Below the pieces are notes generated by a model that was given only the letters and a program-made list of their open reading frames with translations, was not told the DNA's origin and did no database searches. This document shows, in pieces, positions 2,415 to 24,723 of a stretch of DNA of 36,546 nt. Positions within the stretch are counted from its first letter, which is position 1, and every line of letters starts with the position of its first letter. This stretch comes from Methanobacteriota archaeon (GTDB lineage Archaea > Thermoplasmatota > Thermoplasmata > RBG-16-68-12): contig VBMG01000096.1 in assembly GCA_005878485.1 (NCBI GenBank), positions 1 through 36,546 of the forward strand, read 5' to 3'. The position numbers and the translations under genes were made by a program.

Positions 2415-2637
2415 GTCAAAGGGGTCGTACCCATCGGGCGCATGACGCGGCGATCCGACGGGCGGTGCGAGCCATCGACGCCGGGCGGGGGCTGGCTTCG
2501 CCGATTCAAAGGGGGCTTGGAAGCGCGCCGTCCGATGCGTCACCGACGCTTAGGACGTCCTTCGTCCTGAACGGGTCAGCCACTCCATTCCAGCCCGGGG
2601 GGCCCGACGTTGTCACCGGCCACGATGACAAGGTATA

Positions 2638-2654
2638 ATATAAACGCGTTATAT
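2638..2654 (+). promoter_or_regulatory. Palindromic TATA element upstream of tfb
   Basis: Inverted repeat ATATAA-ACGCG-TTATAT centred on 2646, inside an AT-rich island (2634-2657) in GC-rich DNA, 40 bases before the tfb ATG. It must act as, or overlap, the TATA box. The 15-base core at 2639-2653 (TATAAACGCGTTATA) matches the core before sufB (15990-16004, TATAACGTCGTTATA) at 12 of 15 positions, at nearly the same distance from the start codon. It may be an operator or a symmetric TATA box. Confidence 0.6.
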
Positions 2655-2694: not shown

Positions 2695-3499
2695 ATGCCG
2701 AGCAGCACGCCGGCAGAACCAATGGTCGAAGAGGACCGGGTCTGCCCTGAATGCGGCAGCGAGCATCTCGTGCGCGACTACGCGCGCGGCGAGCTTGTCT
2801 GCGATTCCTGTGGCTTGGTCATCAGCGAGAGTGCGATCGACGAGGGCCCCGAGTGGGCCGCGTATTCCGTCGAAGAAAACGACCGGCTCGCCCGCACGGG
2901 AGCGCCCCGAAGCTACGTCGCAGGTTCGTCCGGGTTGACGACGGTCATCCCGCTCGCGAACAAGGACCTGCAAGAAGGCGCTCGAGAAGGGCCTCGTCCG
3001 GGGTCGGTCCATCGAAGCGATTGTTGCCGCCGCGGTCTATGCCGCGTGTCGCATCGACGGCGTCCCGCGAACGCTGGATGAGCTGCAGCAGGTCACCGGC
3101 GTCCGCAAGAAGACGATCGGCAAGGCATACGGCGCGTGCCTGAGGACGCTGACCCTCCGCGTCCCGCCGTCCCGACCGACGGACTATGTCAGCCGCTTCT
3201 GTTCGCGGCTCGGGCTGTCGAACGCGGTCGAGGCGGAAGCCCACAAGATCCTCAAGGAGTTGGAGAAGATTGATAGCTCCATGTCCCTGTCGCCCTCCGG
3301 CACCGCCGCGGCCGCGATCTACCTCGCTTCGCTCGCGTCCGGCGAGCGTCGTCCGCAGAAGGCGATTGCGAAAATCGCCGGCGTCAGCGAGGTCACGTTG
3401 CGCAACCGGTTCCAATTCATGGAGGGTTTCATGCAACAGCTCGTCCTCCCACGCGGCCGTGCGCCGAAACTCGATACATCGTCCCCGCCCGCTCCGTAG
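2695..3499 (+). pseudogene. tfb: Transcription initiation factor B (TFB), internal deletion with frameshift
   Basis: TFB bridges TBP-bound promoters and RNA polymerase. The first reading frame (2695 to about 2970) gives an intact zinc ribbon (C17, C20, C36, C39), the B-reader with G-P-E-W, and R-T-G-A-P. After A-N-K-D-L-Q the frame turns to nonsense and stops at 3081. The +1 frame, from 2972 to the stop at 3499, resumes cleanly with A-L-E-K-G-L-V-R-G-R-S-I-E, the end of the first cyclin repeat and the complete second repeat (Y-V-S-R-F-C-S-R-L, then S-P-S-G-T-A-A-A-A-I-Y). Roughly 55 codons, covering the B-linker end and the first helices of cyclin repeat 1, are missing and the frame is broken. 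As written, no complete TFB can be made. It has a strong promoter and archaea often carry several tfb paralogues, so either decay of one copy or an assembly error is possible. Confidence 0.8.
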
Positions 3500-15530: not shown

Positions 15531-15872
15531 TCAAATCGTGAAGCTCAGGCCGCACGAACAGGAGTGCTTCGCGTTCGGGTTCGTGATCTTGAACTGGCCG
15601 CCGAACAGATCCTCTTCCCACTCGAGCTTCGATCCCCGAAGGTACGTCATGCTCTTCGGGTCGACGAAGACCCGGACGTCCTCTTGGGCGACGACGAGGT
15701 CGGTCGGCCGTGGCGCTTCCGCCAGGTCCATCCGATATTGCATGCCGCTGCAGCCACCCGCGATGATCCGCAGACGCAGCGCGGCTTCCGGCTTGTTTTC
15801 CTTTTGCTGCAACACCCGAATCCGCCGGACGGCGGTGTCCGTCACGGTGAGCGGCAACGTCTCGGAGGCCAT
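15531..15872 (-). CDS. iscA: A-type iron-sulfur cluster carrier (IscA/SufA/ErpA)
   Basis: Carries or relays iron-sulfur clusters from the scaffold to target proteins. The three ligand cysteines are present: C41 in A-G-G-C-S-G-M-Q-Y, and C105 and C107 in S-C-S-C-G-L-S-F. The length of 113 residues is normal. The ATG at 15872 has a GTG codon directly before it at 15875, so the true start is ambiguous by one residue. It diverges from the sufB operon across about 170 bases. Its 3' end lies 11 bases from that of the convergent HdrD-like gene. Confidence 0.92.
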   Translation of the reverse strand: MASETLPLTVTDTAVRRIRVLQQKENKPEAALRLRIIAGGCSGMQYRMDLAEAPRPTDLVVAQEDVRVFVDPKSMTYLRGSKLEWEEDLFGGQFKITNPNAKHSCSCGLSFTI

Positions 15873-15910
15873 CACGCAGATCGCGTCCCGGTGCGTTCGA
15901 AGGCAGCCCT

Positions 15911-15922: not shown

Positions 15923-15989
15923 TTCCGCCGCGAATCGCGCGCCCGGAGTCGGCCCCGCGTCATTCGCCGGACGCACGACCAAAGATATA

Positions 15990-16004
15990 TATAACGTCGT
16001 TATA
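15990..16004 (+). promoter_or_regulatory. Palindromic TATA element of the suf operon
   Basis: TATAACG-T-CGTTATA is a perfect palindrome with 7-base arms, extended on the left by GATATA (15984-15989). It lies 37 bases before the sufB ATG, followed by GGGAGG at 16029-16034 as Shine-Dalgarno. It overlaps the only AT-rich stretch, so it must contain the TATA box. The match to the tfb element (12 of 15 bases, same spacing) suggests a common protein binds here, possibly an iron-sulfur or iron-responsive repressor. That is inference. Confidence 0.65.
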
Positions 16005-16041: not shown

Positions 16042-17493
16042 ATGGTATCCAAGACGGTCATCCAGGAGCAGATGGCGAAGCAGGAGTACAAATACGGCTT
16101 CGTCACCGACGTCGAGATGGAGACGGTCCCGAAGGGCCTGAACGAGGACGTCATCCGGCTCATCTCCGGCAAGAAAAACGAGCCCGAGTGGATGCTCGAC
16201 TGGCGACTCCGCGCCTACCGCCACTGGCTCACGATGAAGGAGCCGAAGTGGTCGAACGTCCGGTATCCGCCGATCAACTATCAGGACATCATCTACTACG
16301 CCGCGCCGAAGCCGAAGAAACCGGTCAAGAGCCTCGAGGACGTCGACCCGGAGATCCGCGCGTTGTACGCGAAGCTCGGGATCCCGCTCCAGGAGCAGGA
16401 GCGCCTCGCCGGCGTGGCCGTCGACGCCGTCCTGGACAGCGTCTCTGTCGCGACGACGTTCAAGGACCGACTTGCGGAGCTCGGGATCATCTTCTGCTCG
16501 TTCTCCGATGCGGTCCGGGAGCACCCGGACCTCGTCCGGAAGTACCTGGGCACCGTGGTCCCGTTCAACGACAACTTCTTCGCGGGCCTGAACAGCGCCG
16601 TGTTCAGCGACGGCTCCTTCGCGTACGTGCCACCGGGCGTCCGGTGCCCGATGGAACTGTCGACCTACTTCCGTATCAACGCGCAAGACACGGGCCAGTT
16701 CGAACGCACCCTGATCATCGCGGACGACGGTGCCTACGTCAGCTATCTCGAAGGCTGCACGGCCCCGATCCGCGACACGAACCAGCTGCATGCGGCGGTC
16801 GTCGAGCTGATCGCGCTCGACAACGCGGAGATCAAGTACTCGACGATCCAGAACTGGTACCCCGGCGATAAGCAGGGGAAAGGCGGCATCTACAACTTCG
16901 TCACGAAGCGCGGCAAGGCGCTCGGGGTGAATTCGAAGGTCTCTTGGACGCAGGTCGAGACGGGCTCCGCGATCACGTGGAAATATCCGAGCTGCATCCT
17001 CCAGGGCGACAACTCCCAGGGCGAGTTCTACTCCGTCGCCGTCGTGAACAACTACCAGCAGGCCGACACCGGCACGAAGATGCTGCATATCGGGAAGAAC
17101 ACCCGAAGCACGATCATCTCGAAAGGCATCTCCGCGGGCTACGGCCGGAACACGTACCGCGGCCGGGTGCATATCCACAAGGGCGCGACGGGCGCGCGGA
17201 ACTACTCGCAGTGCGACTCCCTCTTGCTCGGCTCGACGTGCGCGGCGTTCACGTTCCCGGACATCGTCGTCCAGGATCCGACCGCGCAGATGGAGCACGA
17301 GGCGTCGACCTCGAAGATCGGCGATGAGCAGCTGTTCTACTGCCAGACGCGCGGCATCACGCCCGAAGACGCGACGAACATGATCGTCAACGGCTTCTGC
17401 AAACAAGTCTTCTTGAAGCTCCCGATGGAGTTCGCGGTGGAAGCCCAGAAGCTGATCGGCGTGAGCCTGGCCCTCGAGGGCACGGTCGGCTGA
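16042..17493 (+). CDS. sufB: Fe-S cluster scaffold SufB
   Basis: Core scaffold of the SUF machine, acting with SufC and SufD to build [4Fe-4S] clusters in the cytosol. The 483-residue sequence is a canonical SufB: N-terminal [39 protein letters not shown], and E-H-E-A-S at 418-422 followed by [12 protein letters not shown]. It is the first gene of a nine-gene run and has a good Shine-Dalgarno (GGGAGG). Codon use and composition match the neighbours. Confidence 0.96.
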
Positions 17494-17522
17494 GCGCGTC
17501 CCGCTCCCGGGAGGAGATGGCG

Positions 17523-18293
17523 ATGCTCGAGATCAAGGGTCTGCACGTGAAGGTGGCCGGCAAGGAGATCCTGAAAGGGATCGACCTGTCGATCCAGCCG
17601 GGCGAGGTCCACGCGATCATGGGCCCGAACGGTAGCGGAAAGACGACGCTGGCCCAGGTCCTGGCCGGCCGCGTGACGTACGAGGTCACGGGGGGCACGG
17701 CCCGCTTCGAAGGGAAGGACCTGCTCGCGATGAAGCCGGAGGACCGGGCCCGCGAAGGCGTGTTCATGGCATTCCAGTATCCCGTCGAGATCCCGGGCGT
17801 GAGCAACGCCTACTTCCTGAAGGCCGCGCTGAACGCGATCCGGAAGTACCGCGGCCAGGACGAGATCGATGCGATGGACTTCGTAACCCTCGTCCAGGAC
17901 AAGGCGAAGCTCCTCGGCCTCGACGAGACGTTCATGAAGCGCGGCCTGAACGAAGGCTTCTCGGGCGGCGAGAAAAAGAAGAACGAGGTGTTCCAGATGG
18001 CGGTCCTCGAGCCGAAATTCTGCGTCCTCGACGAGACCGACTCCGGACTCGACATCGACGCCTTGCGGCTCGTGGCGAACGGCATCAACGCGATGCGCAG
18101 CCCGAAGCGGGCGATGCTCGTCGTCACGCACTACCAGCGTCTGCTCGACTACGTCGTGCCGGACGTCGTCCACGTCCTCGTCGACGGGAAGATCGTAAAG
18201 AGCGGGGATGCGGACCTCGCGCGCAACCTCGAGAAGCACGGATACGGCTGGATCCTCGAGGAGGCCCCGAGACCAGCGCCCGCGCGTCCGTGA
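17523..18293 (+). CDS. sufC: SufC ATPase
   Basis: ABC-type ATPase that drives conformational change in SufB/SufD. Walker A is G-P-N-G-S-G-K-T (34-41), the signature is F-S-G-G-E-K-K-K-N-E, and Walker B is C-V-L-D-E-T-D-S-G-L-D. That signature and Walker B variant are typical of SufC. The ATG at 17517 touches the Shine-Dalgarno GGGAGGAG (17509-17516), so I place the start at the ATG at 17523, which gives the usual M-L-E-I-K-G-L start and 6-base spacing. The 256 residues are full length. Its stop overlaps the next start (GTGA). Confidence 0.95.
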   Translation: MLEIKGLHVKVAGKEILKGIDLSIQPGEVHAIMGPNGSGKTTLAQVLAGRVTYEVTGGTARFEGKDLLAMKPEDRAREGVFMAFQYPVEIPGVSNAYFLKAALNAIRKYRGQDEIDAMDFVTLVQDKAKLLGLDETFMKRGLNEGFSGGEKKKNEVFQMAVLEPKFCVLDETDSGLDIDALRLVANGINAMRSPKRAMLVVTHYQRLLDYVVPDVVHVLVDGKIVKSGDADLARNLEKHGYGWILEEAPRPAPARP

Positions 18294-19648
18294 GGCCGGT
18301 GACGGACGTGGCGGTGGCCGTCGACGCGAAGCAGACGTATGTCGCGGAGTTCGCGTCGTCGGAAAAGGAACTCGGCGGGCCGAAATGGGTCCGCACGCTC
18401 CGCCAGAACGCGATCGCACGGTTCGAGTCCCTTGGGTTTCCGACGCAGAAGCACGAGGAATGGAAGTACACGAACCTCGCGCCGCTCCTTCGTGCTCCCT
18501 TCAAGCCCGCCATCTTGGCGCGTCCGGATGGGGTCGTCGCGGAGAAGCTTCAACCCTTCACCTTCGGTGTCCTGAAGACGAACCAGGTCGTCTTCGTGAA
18601 TGGGCGATACGCGCCCCGACTTTCGTACCTGAGATCCTTGCCGGAGGGCGTTCGGATCGGGTCGATGGCGGAGATGCTGCGTTCAGAGCCGAGGGCCCTT
18701 GAGAAGCATGTGGCTCGCTATGCGAGCTTCGAGGCCGATTCGTTCGTCGCCTTGAACACGGCGTTCTTCCAGGACGGCGCGTTCGTCGAGATTCCCAAGA
18801 ACACGGTCGTGGACGAACCGATCCATCTTCTCTTCCTCTCGGCGTCGAGGGACCTTCCCATCGTCGCCCACCCCCGGAACCTGATCCTCCTTGGAGCGAA
18901 CAGCCACGCGACCGTCATCGAGACGTACGCCGGCTGGGCGCCCGACGTGACGTTCACGAACGCGGCGACGGAGGTCGTCGTCGGACCGGCCGCCGTCCTC
19001 GAGCACTACAAGGTGCAGCGGGAGTCCGAGCGGGCGTTCCATTTCGGGACGATGACCGTCGACCAGGAGCGAGATTCCTCCGTCACGGCGCACTCGATGT
19101 CCTTCGGCAGCTCCCTGTCGAGGAACAGCGTGTCCACGATCTTCCGCGGGCAAGGCGGGAGCCTCACGCTGAACGGGATCTTCATGCCCCGGGAGACCCA
19201 ACAACACGACAACTACACGCGCATCGACCATGTGGCGCCCTCGTGCACGAGCGTCGAGCTGTATCGCGGCATCCTCGACGGCCGGTCGCGCGGCGTGTTC
19301 AACGGGAACATCTACGTCCGGAAGGACGCCCAGAAGACGGTCGCGCGGCAGACGAACAAGAACCTCCTCCTCTCGAAAGAGGCGTTCGTCGACAGCACGC
19401 CGGGCCTCGAGATTCTCGCGGACGACGTGAAGTGCAATCACGCGTCCACGATCGGCCAGCTCGACGATAACGCCGTGTTCTACCTGCGATCCCGCGGCAT
19501 CGACGAGGAGGCGGCGCGGAACATCCTGACCTACGCCTTCGTCGCGGATGTCGTGAACCAAGTTCGGGTCGCGCCGATTCGCATCAAACTCGATCAGTTG
19601 ATTCTCTCGCGGCTCCCGAAGGGAGCGGGACTCGGCGAGACCTTATGA
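18290..19648 (+). CDS. sufD: SufD
   Basis: Partner of SufB in the SufBC2D complex, implicated in iron acquisition. The N-terminal part has the K-H-E-E-W-K-Y-T-N-L motif of SufD. The C-terminal part has L-E-I-L-A-D-D-V-K-C-N-H-A-S-T-I-G-Q-L, including the histidine region known to be important in E. coli SufD. The product is 452 residues. It starts with GTG at 18290, overlapping the sufC stop by 4 bases. Archaea more often have only SufB and SufC, so a true SufD supports a bacterial-type suf set. Confidence 0.93.
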   Translation: MRPVTDVAVAVDAKQTYVAEFASSEKELGGPKWVRTLRQNAIARFESLGFPTQKHEEWKYTNLAPLLRAPFKPAILARPDGVVAEKLQPFTFGVLKTNQVVFVNGRYAPRLSYLRSLPEGVRIGSMAEMLRSEPRALEKHVARYASFEADSFVALNTAFFQDGAFVEIPKNTVVDEPIHLLFLSASRDLPIVAHPRNLILLGANSHATVIETYAGWAPDVTFTNAATEVVVGPAAVLEHYKVQRESERAFHFGTMTVDQERDSSVTAHSMSFGSSLSRNSVSTIFRGQGGSLTLNGIFMPRETQQHDNYTRIDHVAPSCTSVELYRGILDGRSRGVFNGNIYVRKDAQKTVARQTNKNLLLSKEAFVDSTPGLEILADDVKCNHASTIGQLDDNAVFYLRSRGIDEEAARNILTYAFVADVVNQVRVAPIRIKLDQLILSRLPKGAGLGETL

Positions 19649-19703: not shown

Positions 19704-20153
19704 ATGGCCGACCTCCGTGAGCTCTACCAGGACACGATTCTGGACCACAGCAAGAAGCCCCGCAACTTCCGCGAGATCCCGGGCGCCACCGCGAAGGCCG
19801 TCGGGCACAACCCGCTTTGCGGCGATCGGGTGACCGTCTACCTGCGCCTCGACGCCGGGAACATCGCGGACATCGCGTTCATCGGCCAGGGCTGCGCGAT
19901 CTCGAAGGCGTCGGCTTCCCTGATGACGGACGCGGTGAAGGGCAAGTCGAAGTCCGAGGCGACCCGTCTGTTCGAGCGATTCCGTAAGATGGTTACGGGC
20001 CGTCCGGGGGATCCGATCGACGCGTCCCTCGGCAAGCTCGCGGTCCTCTCCGGCGTCTGCGAGTTCCCGGTCCGCGTGAAGTGCGCGAGCCTCCCGTGGC
20101 ACACGCTCGAGGCGGCGCTCGAGGCGAAGCAGGAGACCGTGTCCCTGGAGTGA
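19704..20153 (+). CDS. sufU: SufU/IscU-like protein 1
   Basis: Zinc-dependent sulfurtransferase partner of SufS, or an IscU-type scaffold. Three conserved cysteines are visible: N-P-L-C-G-D (C39), G-Q-G-C-A-I-S (about 63), and V-K-C-A-S-L-P-W-H-T-L near the end. The ~20-residue insertion between the second and third cysteines that marks SufU is present (F-R-K-M-V-T-G onwards), so this copy is SufU-like. GGGAGG precedes the ATG by about 9 bases. The 55-base gap after sufD is the largest in the operon. Confidence 0.92.
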   Translation: MADLRELYQDTILDHSKKPRNFREIPGATAKAVGHNPLCGDRVTVYLRLDAGNIADIAFIGQGCAISKASASLMTDAVKGKSKSEATRLFERFRKMVTGRPGDPIDASLGKLAVLSGVCEFPVRVKCASLPWHTLEAALEAKQETVSLE

Positions 20154-20155
20154 CG

Positions 20156-21487
20156 ATGACCGTCGCGGACCTCCCTCCGACTCCGTTGCGAGAGGATGCG
20201 GGACGCTTCGTGACGATTGGCAACGCCCCGACTGCGGAGCTCGTCCGCGACCTGTCCCGAAATCGAAACGAACCCGATTGGATGCTCCGACACCGGTTGC
20301 GGGCCCTGGAACGGCTCCGATCGGACGGCGTGCCGGCGTGGGCCGCCTTCCTGCGGGATGTGGACTTCGAGGGCATCGTAGGCGCGGAAGGGCCGCCGCA
20401 TTCGCCCGAGACGGCGAAGGATGGATCGAGTATCTTGCCGGGCCTCGGCGCGCTCGCCGAATCCGAGGCGGCGTACCGTTCCGTCCGAAGAGACCTCGAG
20501 TCCCGCGGCGTGCGCTTCTCCGGATTGGGGTCCGCGCTCGCATCGACTCCGAACCTCGTGAAACCGCACTTCGGCACCGCGATTCCCATGGACGACCATC
20601 CGTTCGCCGCCCTCAACGGGAGCCTTTGGACGGGCGGGTCCTTCGTCTACGTCCCGCCGGACGTGCACCTCGAGATTCCACTCCAGGCTGAGATCCGCGC
20701 GGACTACGAGAAGGTCGAGCCGTTCGAGCGCAACCTGATCGTCGCCGACGCCGGCGCCCAAATCACGTACATCGAGGGGTGCACGGCACCCGTGTACACG
20801 CCGGACCAGCTTCACGTGTCCGCGATCGAGGTCCTCGCGTTGCCTCGATCTCGCGTGCGGTACATCGCGCTCCAGAATTTCTCCCGAGAGGTCGACAACC
20901 TCGTGATGAAGCGCGCGCTCGTGCACGAAGGCGCGACGATCGAGTGGGTCGATGCGAACCTGGGCTCGCGCCGCACGTGGAAAGTGCCTCGCGCCGACCT
21001 GCTCGGTCCAGGGGCCGTCGCCGAATTCGTCGGAGTCGCCCTCGCGGGCAGACGACAGCACCAGGACGTCGGGGCGGAAGTCGTCCACCGCGCACCGCGA
21101 ACCCGCTCGACAATTGTGAACCGCGGCATCGTCCACACCGGAGGTCGCGCGACCCTCCGGTCGGGCGTCCACGTGGCTCCGCAGGCCCTGGGCGCTTCCG
21201 CGTCCGTCGAATGGTCGGCCCTCATGCTCGACGCCGACTCGCGAGCGGAGACCGTGCCCACGATCGAGCTCGACGAAGCGGACGCGGAGATTGTCCAGGC
21301 CGGAAGCATCCGCAAGGTGAGCGACGAGATGCTGTTCTACATGGCCAGCCGCGGCGTGACGCGCGACGAGGCCCTGCGGATGGTCGTCCTCGGGGCCGCG
21401 GACGCGGCGATGGCGCGCATCCCCGTCGAGTACGCGGTCGAAGTCGAGCGACTCATCGAGCTGGAGCTCGGGGGCGGCGTCGGATGA
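20156..21487 (+). CDS. Third SufB/SufD-family protein, divergent SufB-like
   Basis: 443 residues, starting at the ATG at 20156, two bases after the sufU stop; the longer open frame overlaps sufU and is rejected. Similarity to SufB is clear: N-E-P-D-W-M-L-R-H-R-L-R, G-G-S-F-V-Y-V-P-P-D-V, Y-I-E-G-C-T-A-P, and a C-terminal S-D-E-M-L-F-Y-M-A-S-R-G-V. The SufB block E-H-E-A-S is replaced by V-Q-A-G-S, and the S-Q-C-D-S region by V-E-W-S-A. It is therefore neither a normal SufB nor a SufD. It may replace one partner in an alternative complex or act in a specialised step. It is coupled to sufS by an ATGA junction. Confidence 0.85.
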   Translation: MTVADLPPTPLREDAGRFVTIGNAPTAELVRDLSRNRNEPDWMLRHRLRALERLRSDGVPAWAAFLRDVDFEGIVGAEGPPHSPETAKDGSSILPGLGALAESEAAYRSVRRDLESRGVRFSGLGSALASTPNLVKPHFGTAIPMDDHPFAALNGSLWTGGSFVYVPPDVHLEIPLQAEIRADYEKVEPFERNLIVADAGAQITYIEGCTAPVYTPDQLHVSAIEVLALPRSRVRYIALQNFSREVDNLVMKRALVHEGATIEWVDANLGSRRTWKVPRADLLGPGAVAEFVGVALAGRRQHQDVGAEVVHRAPRTRSTIVNRGIVHTGGRATLRSGVHVAPQALGASASVEWSALMLDADSRAETVPTIELDEADAEIVQAGSIRKVSDEMLFYMASRGVTRDEALRMVVLGAADAAMARIPVEYAVEVERLIELELGGGVG

Positions 21488-21522
21488 CCGCGTCACGAGA
21501 AAACTCAAGTAGGGAGGCGGTC

Positions 21523-22788
21523 ATGGCAAGAAAGGACCGCATGGCGAAACCGGCCAAGATGCTGTTGAACGTGCCCGCCATCCAGGCGGACTTCCCCATC
21601 CTCAAGCGGACGGTGCGGGACAAGCGGCTCGTGTACCTCGACAGTGCGGCGACGTCCCAGAAGCCGAAACAGGTTATCGAGGCCACGTCCGACTACTATT
21701 CGCGGTACAACGCGAACGTCCATCGCGCGATCTACGAGCTCGGCGAAGAGTCCACGCGGGAGTATGAAGGCGCGCGGGAGAAGGTCGCGGACTTCATCCA
21801 CGCGAAGGCGGCGAGCGAAATCGCGTTCACGAAGTCGACGACGGAATCGATCAACGTCATCGCATACGGCTACGGGCTCAAAGGCAAGATCCAGAAGGGC
21901 GACGAGATCCTCGGCACCGTGATGGAGCACCATTCGAATCATGTGCCCTGGCACTTCGTGAAGGACCACAAGGGCGCGGTCCTGAAGTACGTCGACGTGG
22001 CCGACGACGGCACCCTGAAGATGGAGCAGTACGACGACCTCCTCACCCGCCACACGAAGATCGTGACGGTGACCCTGTGCTCGAACGTCCTCGGGACGAT
22101 CAATCCGGTCAAGGAGATTGCGAAACGGGCCCATGAGGTCGGCGCGCTCTGCGTCGTCGATGCGGCCCAGGCGGCTCCCCACATGCCGGTCGACGTCCAG
22201 AGCCTCGACGCGGACTTCCTCGCGTTCAGCGGGCACAAGATGCTGGGGCCGACGGGGATCGGCGTGCTCTACGGCAAGGCGGAACTCCTCGAGGAAACGG
22301 AACCGCTCCTGGGCGGCGGCGAGATGATCCGCGAGGTGCACCTCGGCTGGGCCAAGTGGAACGACGTCCCGTACAAGTTCGAGGGCGGCACACCGAACAT
22401 CGCGGGCGCGATCGGCCTCGGCGTCGCGGTCGACTACCTCACGAAACTGGGGATGGACGCGGTCCGGGCCCACGAAATGGAGGTCACGCAGTACGCGCTC
22501 GAGAAGTTCGACCGCCTCAAGGGCGTTACCACGTACGGACCGAAGGATGTCAAGAGGCGCGCGGGCGTGGTGTCCTTCACGATCGAAGGCGCGCACCCGC
22601 ACGACATCGCCTCGATCTTGGACGTGGAGGGCATCTGTATCCGATCGGGCCACCACTGCGCTCAGCCGCTCATGGAACGGTTCGACCTCCCCGCGACGGC
22701 GCGGGCGTCGTTCTACATCTACAACGACCTGGACGATGTCGACGCGCTGATCGCCGGCATCAAGCGAGTCCAGGAGGTCTTTGCCTGA
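21523..22788 (+). CDS. sufS: Cysteine desulfurase SufS
   Basis: PLP-dependent enzyme that takes sulfur from cysteine as a persulfide for cluster assembly. A 421-residue class II desulfurase with the PLP lysine K239 in F-S-G-H-K-M-L-G-P-T, H-H-S-N-H in the substrate site, and the active cysteine C379 in R-S-G-H-H-C-A-Q-P-L. I chose the ATG at 21523, which has AGGGAGG 5 bases upstream. An in-frame ATG at 21484 overlaps the previous stop and would add 13 residues. The stop overlaps the next ATG by one base. The adjacent cysteine synthase could supply its substrate. Confidence 0.95.
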   Translation: MARKDRMAKPAKMLLNVPAIQADFPILKRTVRDKRLVYLDSAATSQKPKQVIEATSDYYSRYNANVHRAIYELGEESTREYEGAREKVADFIHAKAASEIAFTKSTTESINVIAYGYGLKGKIQKGDEILGTVMEHHSNHVPWHFVKDHKGAVLKYVDVADDGTLKMEQYDDLLTRHTKIVTVTLCSNVLGTINPVKEIAKRAHEVGALCVVDAAQAAPHMPVDVQSLDADFLAFSGHKMLGPTGIGVLYGKAELLEETEPLLGGGEMIREVHLGWAKWNDVPYKFEGGTPNIAGAIGLGVAVDYLTKLGMDAVRAHEMEVTQYALEKFDRLKGVTTYGPKDVKRRAGVVSFTIEGAHPHDIASILDVEGICIRSGHHCAQPLMERFDLPATARASFYIYNDLDDVDALIAGIKRVQEVFA

Positions 22789-23180
22789 TGGCGGTCTCCT
22801 ACGAGATGTACCAGGAGCAGATCCTGGACCATTACAAGCACCCTCGCAACAAAGGCTCCCTACCCAGCGCGACGAAGAACGCCCGGGACACGAACCCGCT
22901 GTGCGGCGACGAAGTCGTCCTCCATCTGAAGATCGACGGATCGGATCGCATTGCGGACGTGCGGTTCGAGGGCCAGGGGTGCGCGATCAGCCAGGCGAGC
23001 GCGTCGATGTTGACGACGATCGTGAAGGGGATGTCTCTGGGGGACGCGACCGCCCTGGACCGGGACGCGATTCTGAAGAAGCTCGGGATTCCGCTCAGCG
23101 CGGTTCGCCTGAAGTGCGCCCTGCTGTCTCTGCACGTTCTCAAAGTCGCGCTGGGGCCCAAGCCTGACGTCTCGAAGTGA
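22788..23180 (+). CDS. SufU/IscU-like protein 2, shorter form
   Basis: A second paralogue, 130 residues. It keeps the three cysteines (N-P-L-C-G-D, G-Q-G-C-A-I-S, R-L-K-C-A-L-L-S-L-H) but lacks most of the insertion seen in the first copy, so the region between the second and third cysteines is closer to IscU length. It starts at an ATG overlapping the sufS stop by one base. Two SufU-like proteins in one operon suggest a division of labour, for example zinc-dependent sulfur acceptor versus scaffold. That is inference. Confidence 0.9.
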   Translation: MAVSYEMYQEQILDHYKHPRNKGSLPSATKNARDTNPLCGDEVVLHLKIDGSDRIADVRFEGQGCAISQASASMLTTIVKGMSLGDATALDRDAILKKLGIPLSAVRLKCALLSLHVLKVALGPKPDVSK

Positions 23181-24684: not shown

Positions 24685-24696
24685 AACCTTAAGTAT
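24685..24696 (+). promoter_or_regulatory. Promoter of the MoaD-ThiF-rhodanese gene
   Basis: AACCTTAAGTAT ends 27 bases before the ATG at 24724. With transcription starting about 25 bases downstream of the TATA, the mRNA would be nearly leaderless, in keeping with the absence of a Shine-Dalgarno. Confidence 0.5.
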
Positions 24697-24723
24697 CTCA
24701 CTGTTGTGGCACGAGGCACGACG

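Follow-up and report, generated by a model that had tools for sequence, protein, structure and literature searches.

Why do the promoter of an iron-sulfur (Fe-S) cluster assembly operon and the promoter of a TFB gene carry almost the same palindrome? The question is raised by the 36,546 nucleotides of archaeal DNA analyzed here (the window), in which TATAACGTCGTTATA lies at 15990-16004, before suf, and TATAAACGCGTTATA lies at 2639-2653, before tfb. An initial annotation had noticed the pair and offered two readings: a common regulator of cluster assembly and a TFB paralogue, or a symmetric TATA box that simply reads both ways. We consider it likely that TATAAC-N3-GTTATA is the operator of one dimeric regulator, probably a repressor, of a small Fe-S regulon that includes one TFB paralogue.

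The palindrome and its two promoters in the window

The coordinates of both 15-mers were confirmed, and a recount bears out that 12 of 15 positions are identical and that the distance to the start codon is 37 nt for suf (ATG at 16042) and 41 nt for tfb (ATG at 2695). Both are members of a conserved 6-3-6 palindrome, TATAAC-N3-GTTATA. The description of both as inverted repeats holds without qualification for the suf copy, TATAAC-GTC-GTTATA, which is a perfect 7-1-7 palindrome. The tfb copy, TATAAA-CGC-GTTATA, is imperfect as a 15-mer, with a perfect right half and one mismatch in the left half (TATAAA, not TATAAC); with a wider flank its arms extend to 7 bases (AATATAA-ACGCG-TTATATT). When up to 3 mismatches to the suf 15-mer are allowed, the window matches just at the suf and tfb places (4 strand matches). 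Shuffled windows gave a mean of 0.08 matches, and none of 100 shuffles reached 4.

The predicted suf operator overlaps the 3' end of a putative TATA box (ATATATATAA), which together with a putative BRE (CCAAAG) spans 15979-15994 on the plus strand. CGACCAAAGATATATATAAC is kept in relatives at the suf promoter, and the architecture around the box is identical in 16 further genomes of the family and at locus L177. Downstream on the plus strand are sufB, the first gene of the cluster (16042-17493, SUFBD_core), sufC, encoding an ABC ATPase (17517-18293), sufD (18290-19648, SUFBD_core), and, at 19704-23180, genes for a NifU_N protein, a second SufB/D-like protein, a cysteine desulfurase (class V aminotransferase) and a second NifU_N protein. 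The locus thus encodes a SUF system with SufB, SufC and SufD, scaffold and desulfurase. A sufA-like gene for an A-type Fe-S carrier (15531-15875, minus strand, PF01521) is divergent from sufB, and the intergenic operator is common to both; the divergent arrangement is the same in relatives. The soil metagenome-assembled genome "Euryarchaeota archaeon EA_2" has a SufB that is 93% identical and an exact box at suf; its sample name and published work (PMC9038741) hint that it may belong to the Thermoplasmatota order Ca. Angelarchaeales. Outside the close archaeal relatives, the best SufB matches in the genome collection come from bacteria (about 70-77% identity), an indication that the suf cluster has a bacterial source.

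At tfb, most of the left half of the operator is held within the putative TATA box (TATAATATAA, 2634-2643, plus strand). Overlapping the presumed BRE is a second inverted repeat, TTGTCA-N10-TGACAA (2610-2631). This repeat lies upstream of the tfb TATA box in the window and at L038, L068, L069, L084, L086 and L092, and among all loci examined it was found at no place but tfb promoters. It is possibly the site of a second regulator of tfb. The gene itself (TFB-C; 2695-3499, plus strand, Zn_Ribbon_TF) has a broken frame in this assembly. Compared with its orthologues, 182 bases are absent near 2967 (2960-2975), and the frame shifts before and into the first cyclin repeat. This loss may be a real deletion or an assembly fault, and the argument from the promoter is unaffected. 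The orthologues are full length (about 328 aa), and the zinc ribbon is present in the window copy.

Relatives have several TFBs per genome, and TFB-C is indeed one paralogue among several, as had been proposed. Of 21 other family genomes, 18 have an orthologue with the box, at 1-2 mismatches, as do both genomes of family f5. Among the sampled genomes, the box is confined to one of three TFB paralogue clades. A tree built from 29 TFBs of these genomes requires a single change for the box, and the box-bearing TFBs are parted from the rest by a branch supported at 100/100; TFB-C is distinct from the other TFBs of its genome by this same branch. The promoters of the other TFB genes differ at 5 or more of the 12 fixed positions in nearly all cases, and at 4 in one. 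Even among quite diverged tfb promoters, the right arm CGTTATA hardly varies. In the left arm, the sixth base is C in 2 of 23 tfb copies, both of a second paralogue, and A, G or T in the main paralogue. It may be that the tfb operator is weaker by design, or that C is forbidden there by the TATA box, which overlaps the left arm. Given this base, the regulator may act on tfb less strongly than on its other targets, or in a partly different way.

Conservation of the site and its target genes

The genome to which the window belongs is a draft of 2.08 Mb that is 84% complete. It contains 2 exact sites and 3 sites with one mismatch to TATAAC-N3-GTTATA, located at suf, a ZIP transporter gene, tfb, a rhodanese gene, and adjoining a gene with an Lrp-type ligand domain. 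The reversed control pattern gives 2 sites at the same level, so the count in this genome is by itself modest evidence; the strong evidence comes from the relatives.

The geometry of the palindrome is fixed well above chance. When the spacer was left free from 0 to 15 bases in 26 related genomes, 28 of the 29 exact TATAAC-N(0-15)-GTTATA matches had a spacer of 3, and the reversed control had no matches at all. Many of the 29 matches are orthologous and not independent, yet they span at least 5 different genes. In 18 genomes of the same genus there are 57 sites at no more than 1 mismatch, and 4 for the reversed control. Counts at 2 mismatches come near those of the control, and for this reason lone sites at that level were accepted only if an orthologue also had one. 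We scored 802 kb of sequence with a weight matrix derived from the sites; about 0.65 Mb came from G015, a near-complete relative, and the remainder from parts of the window's own genome. This found 8 distinct matches above 19 bits, all at genes of the proposed regulon. The next match scored 18.5 bits and noise starts below about 16 bits; the matrix was trained on several of the same sites, and the scan is a measure of the gap to background, not an independent discovery.

The initial annotation proposed a scan of the whole genome, in which occurrence of the pattern at many unrelated promoters would speak against a shared regulator. Among 19 genomes of the genus, including that of the window, 56 of 62 sites at up to 1 mismatch fall into seven classes of iron, sulfur and TFB genes: suf (14), tfb (19, of which 2 belong to the second, related paralogue), rhodanese (8), ZIP (5), DsrE-like (5), the FTR1 iron permease (3) and a ThiS-ThiF-rhodanese fusion (2). 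The other six precede the gene with the Lrp-type ligand domain, a carbonic anhydrase, a hexapeptide transferase, an HTH-ThiN protein and, in two cases, a small conserved protein that matches no Pfam family. Looser sites add ftr1 in 3 more genomes, the ThiS-ThiF-rhodanese gene in 3, rhodanese in 4 and a second A-type carrier in 2; the members with 2 mismatches and orthologous positions are thiSF, ftr1, rhodanese and the IscA-like gene. In the window itself, a degenerate box (TATCTCACTGTTGTG, 24694-24708, plus strand) with 4 mismatches lies 15 nt before the ThiS-ThiF-rhodanese gene, and in G008, G011 and G016 a better-matching box precedes the orthologue at 14 nt.

The proposed link between suf and a TFB gene therefore stands, through a shared box that is kept upstream of both in relatives, but membership is larger than the annotation had it, and includes ZIP, FTR1, rhodanese, DsrE-like, ThiS-ThiF-rhodanese and second A-type carrier genes. 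Within the order, four families (f1, f4, f5 and f6) have the suf box, also where sufC opens the suf cluster, and two families (f1 and f5) have the tfb box.

For the small conserved protein that matches no Pfam family (FVRDELLRCFESANREFF...), the box lies at the start codon or immediately ahead of it in three genomes from two families (L027, L066 and L070), and the copy at L027, which is from another family, is exact. This protein is a possible further member of the Fe-S regulon.

A candidate repressor of Fe-S supply

The predicted regulon comprises suf and sufA, a second A-type carrier, iron or metal uptake by FTR1 and ZIP, sulfur delivery by rhodanese, DsrE-like and ThiS-ThiF-rhodanese proteins, and one TFB paralogue. 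The box at suf, ftr1, rhodanese and ThiS-ThiF has its left arm on the 3' end of a TATA-like element, which follows a BRE-like sequence. At dsrE, the box ends 6 nt before the ATG, and some 15-20 bases upstream of it is a separate TATA-like element. Since the box overlaps the 3' edge of the TATA box or sits between it and the start, the regulator is most likely a repressor. In SurR of the Thermococcales, sites downstream of the TATA box repress and upstream sites activate (PMC12162507). We postulate that a dimer bound to the box blocks TBP/TFB or polymerase while iron or Fe-S clusters suffice, and would leave the box when either is short. Release on shortage is the simplest reading, because all of the targets would be wanted together at that time. 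On derepression the TFB paralogue would rise too; this TFB could then send polymerase to additional promoters, in a manner loosely resembling that of an alternative sigma factor. For iron status acting by way of a TFB there is a protein-level precedent, in that iron starvation alters the abundance of TFB paralogues in Haloferax volcanii (PMC11349517). What the analysis shows directly is the site, with its geometry, conservation and targets, and the distinctness of the TFB paralogue; we infer the single regulator, the repression, the iron or Fe-S signal and the downstream action of the TFB. The arrangement points to a core transcription factor that is switched in step with iron-sulfur supply.

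Other readings of the palindrome are possible. The resemblance is most unlikely to be a chance likeness of AT-rich promoter sequence: the own genome, with 5 sites and 2 for the control, leaves some room for this, and the spacer test, the coherence of the targets and the conservation across families refute it. A symmetric TATA box that drives two divergent genes, the other reading of the initial annotation, would fit suf/sufA and tfb/fumarase, which are divergent pairs. We find this very improbable, since a TATA box needs no fixed 3-base center between TATAAC and GTTATA, the ferredoxin-like gene that precedes the box-bearing ZIP gene is on the same strand, so that this pair is not divergent, the dsrE box lies 6 nt before the ATG with its own TATA-like element upstream, and other TFB genes lack the box. 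These observations contradict the idea that the element simply reads both ways.

The element could also be read by TFB-C itself, as a core promoter element specific to this paralogue, with no separate regulator. TFB-C does belong to its own target set, and the region of its recognition helix differs somewhat from that of other TFBs (SEVTLRNRF versus TEVTIRNRY). We give this little credence, as the box lies downstream of the BRE and not at it, the dsrE box is downstream of a separate TATA-like element, and two-fold symmetry fits a dimeric regulator and not a TFB. An activator, or a factor with both roles, is unlikely but would serve genes that are all wanted simultaneously, and tfb promoters have a second inverted repeat upstream of the TATA box; against it, the palindrome is at or downstream of the TATA box in the examples inspected, the position from which SurR represses.

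The identity of the regulator was sought among three families. A metal repressor of the DtxR/IdeR/MntR family, encoded divergently beside ftr1 with the box between the two genes, was one candidate: this arrangement occurs in G003, G010 and G012 (L063, L090 and L093), and iron genes are among the targets. However, DtxR (PF01325) is above cut-off in just 9 of 26 genomes, and none is above cut-off in the window's own genome (G000), G008, G011, G015, G017 or the family genomes G019-G021. G015 is 98% complete and has the box at suf, tfb, rhodanese and dsrE, yet has no DtxR above cut-off, and ftr1 keeps its box without DtxR in G009, G011, G017, G019 and G021. A DtxR-type regulator is thus largely refuted, and we hold it to be very improbable. 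Fur (PF01475) was rejected as the common regulator, as it is missing from family f1 and was found in f3 only. Rrf2 (PF02082) was rejected as well, with no match above cut-off in the 26 genomes of the order and class and none at all in the own genome. Apart from DtxR by ftr1 in three genomes, no regulator gene is conserved beside the targets. From these absences and the lack of a conserved neighbor, we conclude that the regulator is probably something else, unlinked to its targets.

Several other candidates were considered. A ribbon-helix-helix gene was set aside: it lies directly before ftsZ, is CdrS-like, and has a constant and different palindrome. That palindrome, TATGAC-N3-GTCATA, is located 31-32 nt before the start in seven genomes (L004, G000:C36:1055-1069; L296-L301) and is probably the gene's own operator. 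OxsR of Haloferax has a CG-rich, unrelated motif. A 128-aa HTH protein with four C-terminal cysteines (L013:1554-1937, contig C85 of G000) has a 2-mismatch box 38 nt before its start, and its HTH is related to that of the HTH-ThiN protein L087, which has a 1-mismatch box. In a search of nine other genomes at up to 2 mismatches, no orthologue of L013 showed the box, and the gene was not found in the sampled part of G015; L013 is a weak candidate for the regulator.

A broader scheme is possible, and we offer it tentatively. A previously unrecognized sensor of iron or Fe-S clusters, outside the DtxR, Fur and Rrf2 families, might control assembly, uptake, sulfur transfer and a dedicated TFB; this TFB might act like a sigma factor in iron-sulfur shortage, and the second inverted repeat might bring in a further input.

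Comparison with known systems

The system proposed here would work like an IscR, SufR or IdeR regulon and appears to be a member of none of those that could be tested. In the bacterial isc/suf systems, the Rrf2 protein IscR is likewise one regulator of Fe-S assembly that answers cluster demand, with suf and A-type carriers among its targets; here no Rrf2 protein is above cut-off, and the targets add FTR1, ZIP, sulfur-transfer proteins and a TFB. SufR of cyanobacteria and mycobacteria represses the suf operon, as we propose for the present regulator. SufR reads other inverted repeats, and no SufR-type gene was found beside suf. Archaeal DtxR/IdeR/Idr regulons have operators near the TATA box and include the iron permease among their targets. 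The likeness to the present sites extends to the dtxR gene beside ftr1 in a few genomes, but DtxR is missing from the window's own genome and from most box-bearing relatives. None of our tests, including the presence of a DtxR protein in every box-bearing genome, assigned the system to the DtxR/IdeR, Fur or IscR/Rrf2 families.

SurR of the Thermococcales is likewise archaeal and sulfur-linked, has GTT and AAC three bases apart, and represses when bound downstream of the TATA box; its recognition site is GTTn3AAC (PMC12162507). Here the order is AACn3GTT, of opposite polarity and within a 15-base palindrome, so the SurR site was not matched, and the targets and lineage differ. The haloarchaeal TFB networks also have several TFBs per genome, and TFB levels in Haloferax shift with iron (PMC11349517), whereas here one TFB paralogue bears the operator of suf and iron uptake, which would be a direct wiring. 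We propose that the system is distinguished by a single operator that joins genes for cluster assembly, iron uptake and sulfur transfer with a TFB paralogue. In the papers searched, we found no report of a TFB paralogue wired in this way with Fe-S or iron genes.

It has long been asked why archaea retain several TFB genes. The presence of the suf and iron-uptake operator at one TFB paralogue across many species turns that question into a definite and testable wiring. In this group of soil archaea, Fe-S supply is probably regulated by a factor that belongs to none of the three families commonly sought, and the 15-base box is usable as bait to find that factor.

In families f2 and f3, the palindrome lies instead before genes for proteins of multi-heme cytochrome type, as read from their sequences (L150, L151, L156, L161, L162 and L171, among others), and before an ABC ATPase gene that adjoins one of them; in f3 it also precedes a TrmB-type regulator gene (L031 and L032). 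The regulon seems to have shifted in these families, which would indicate that the role of the regulator is not fixed across the order.
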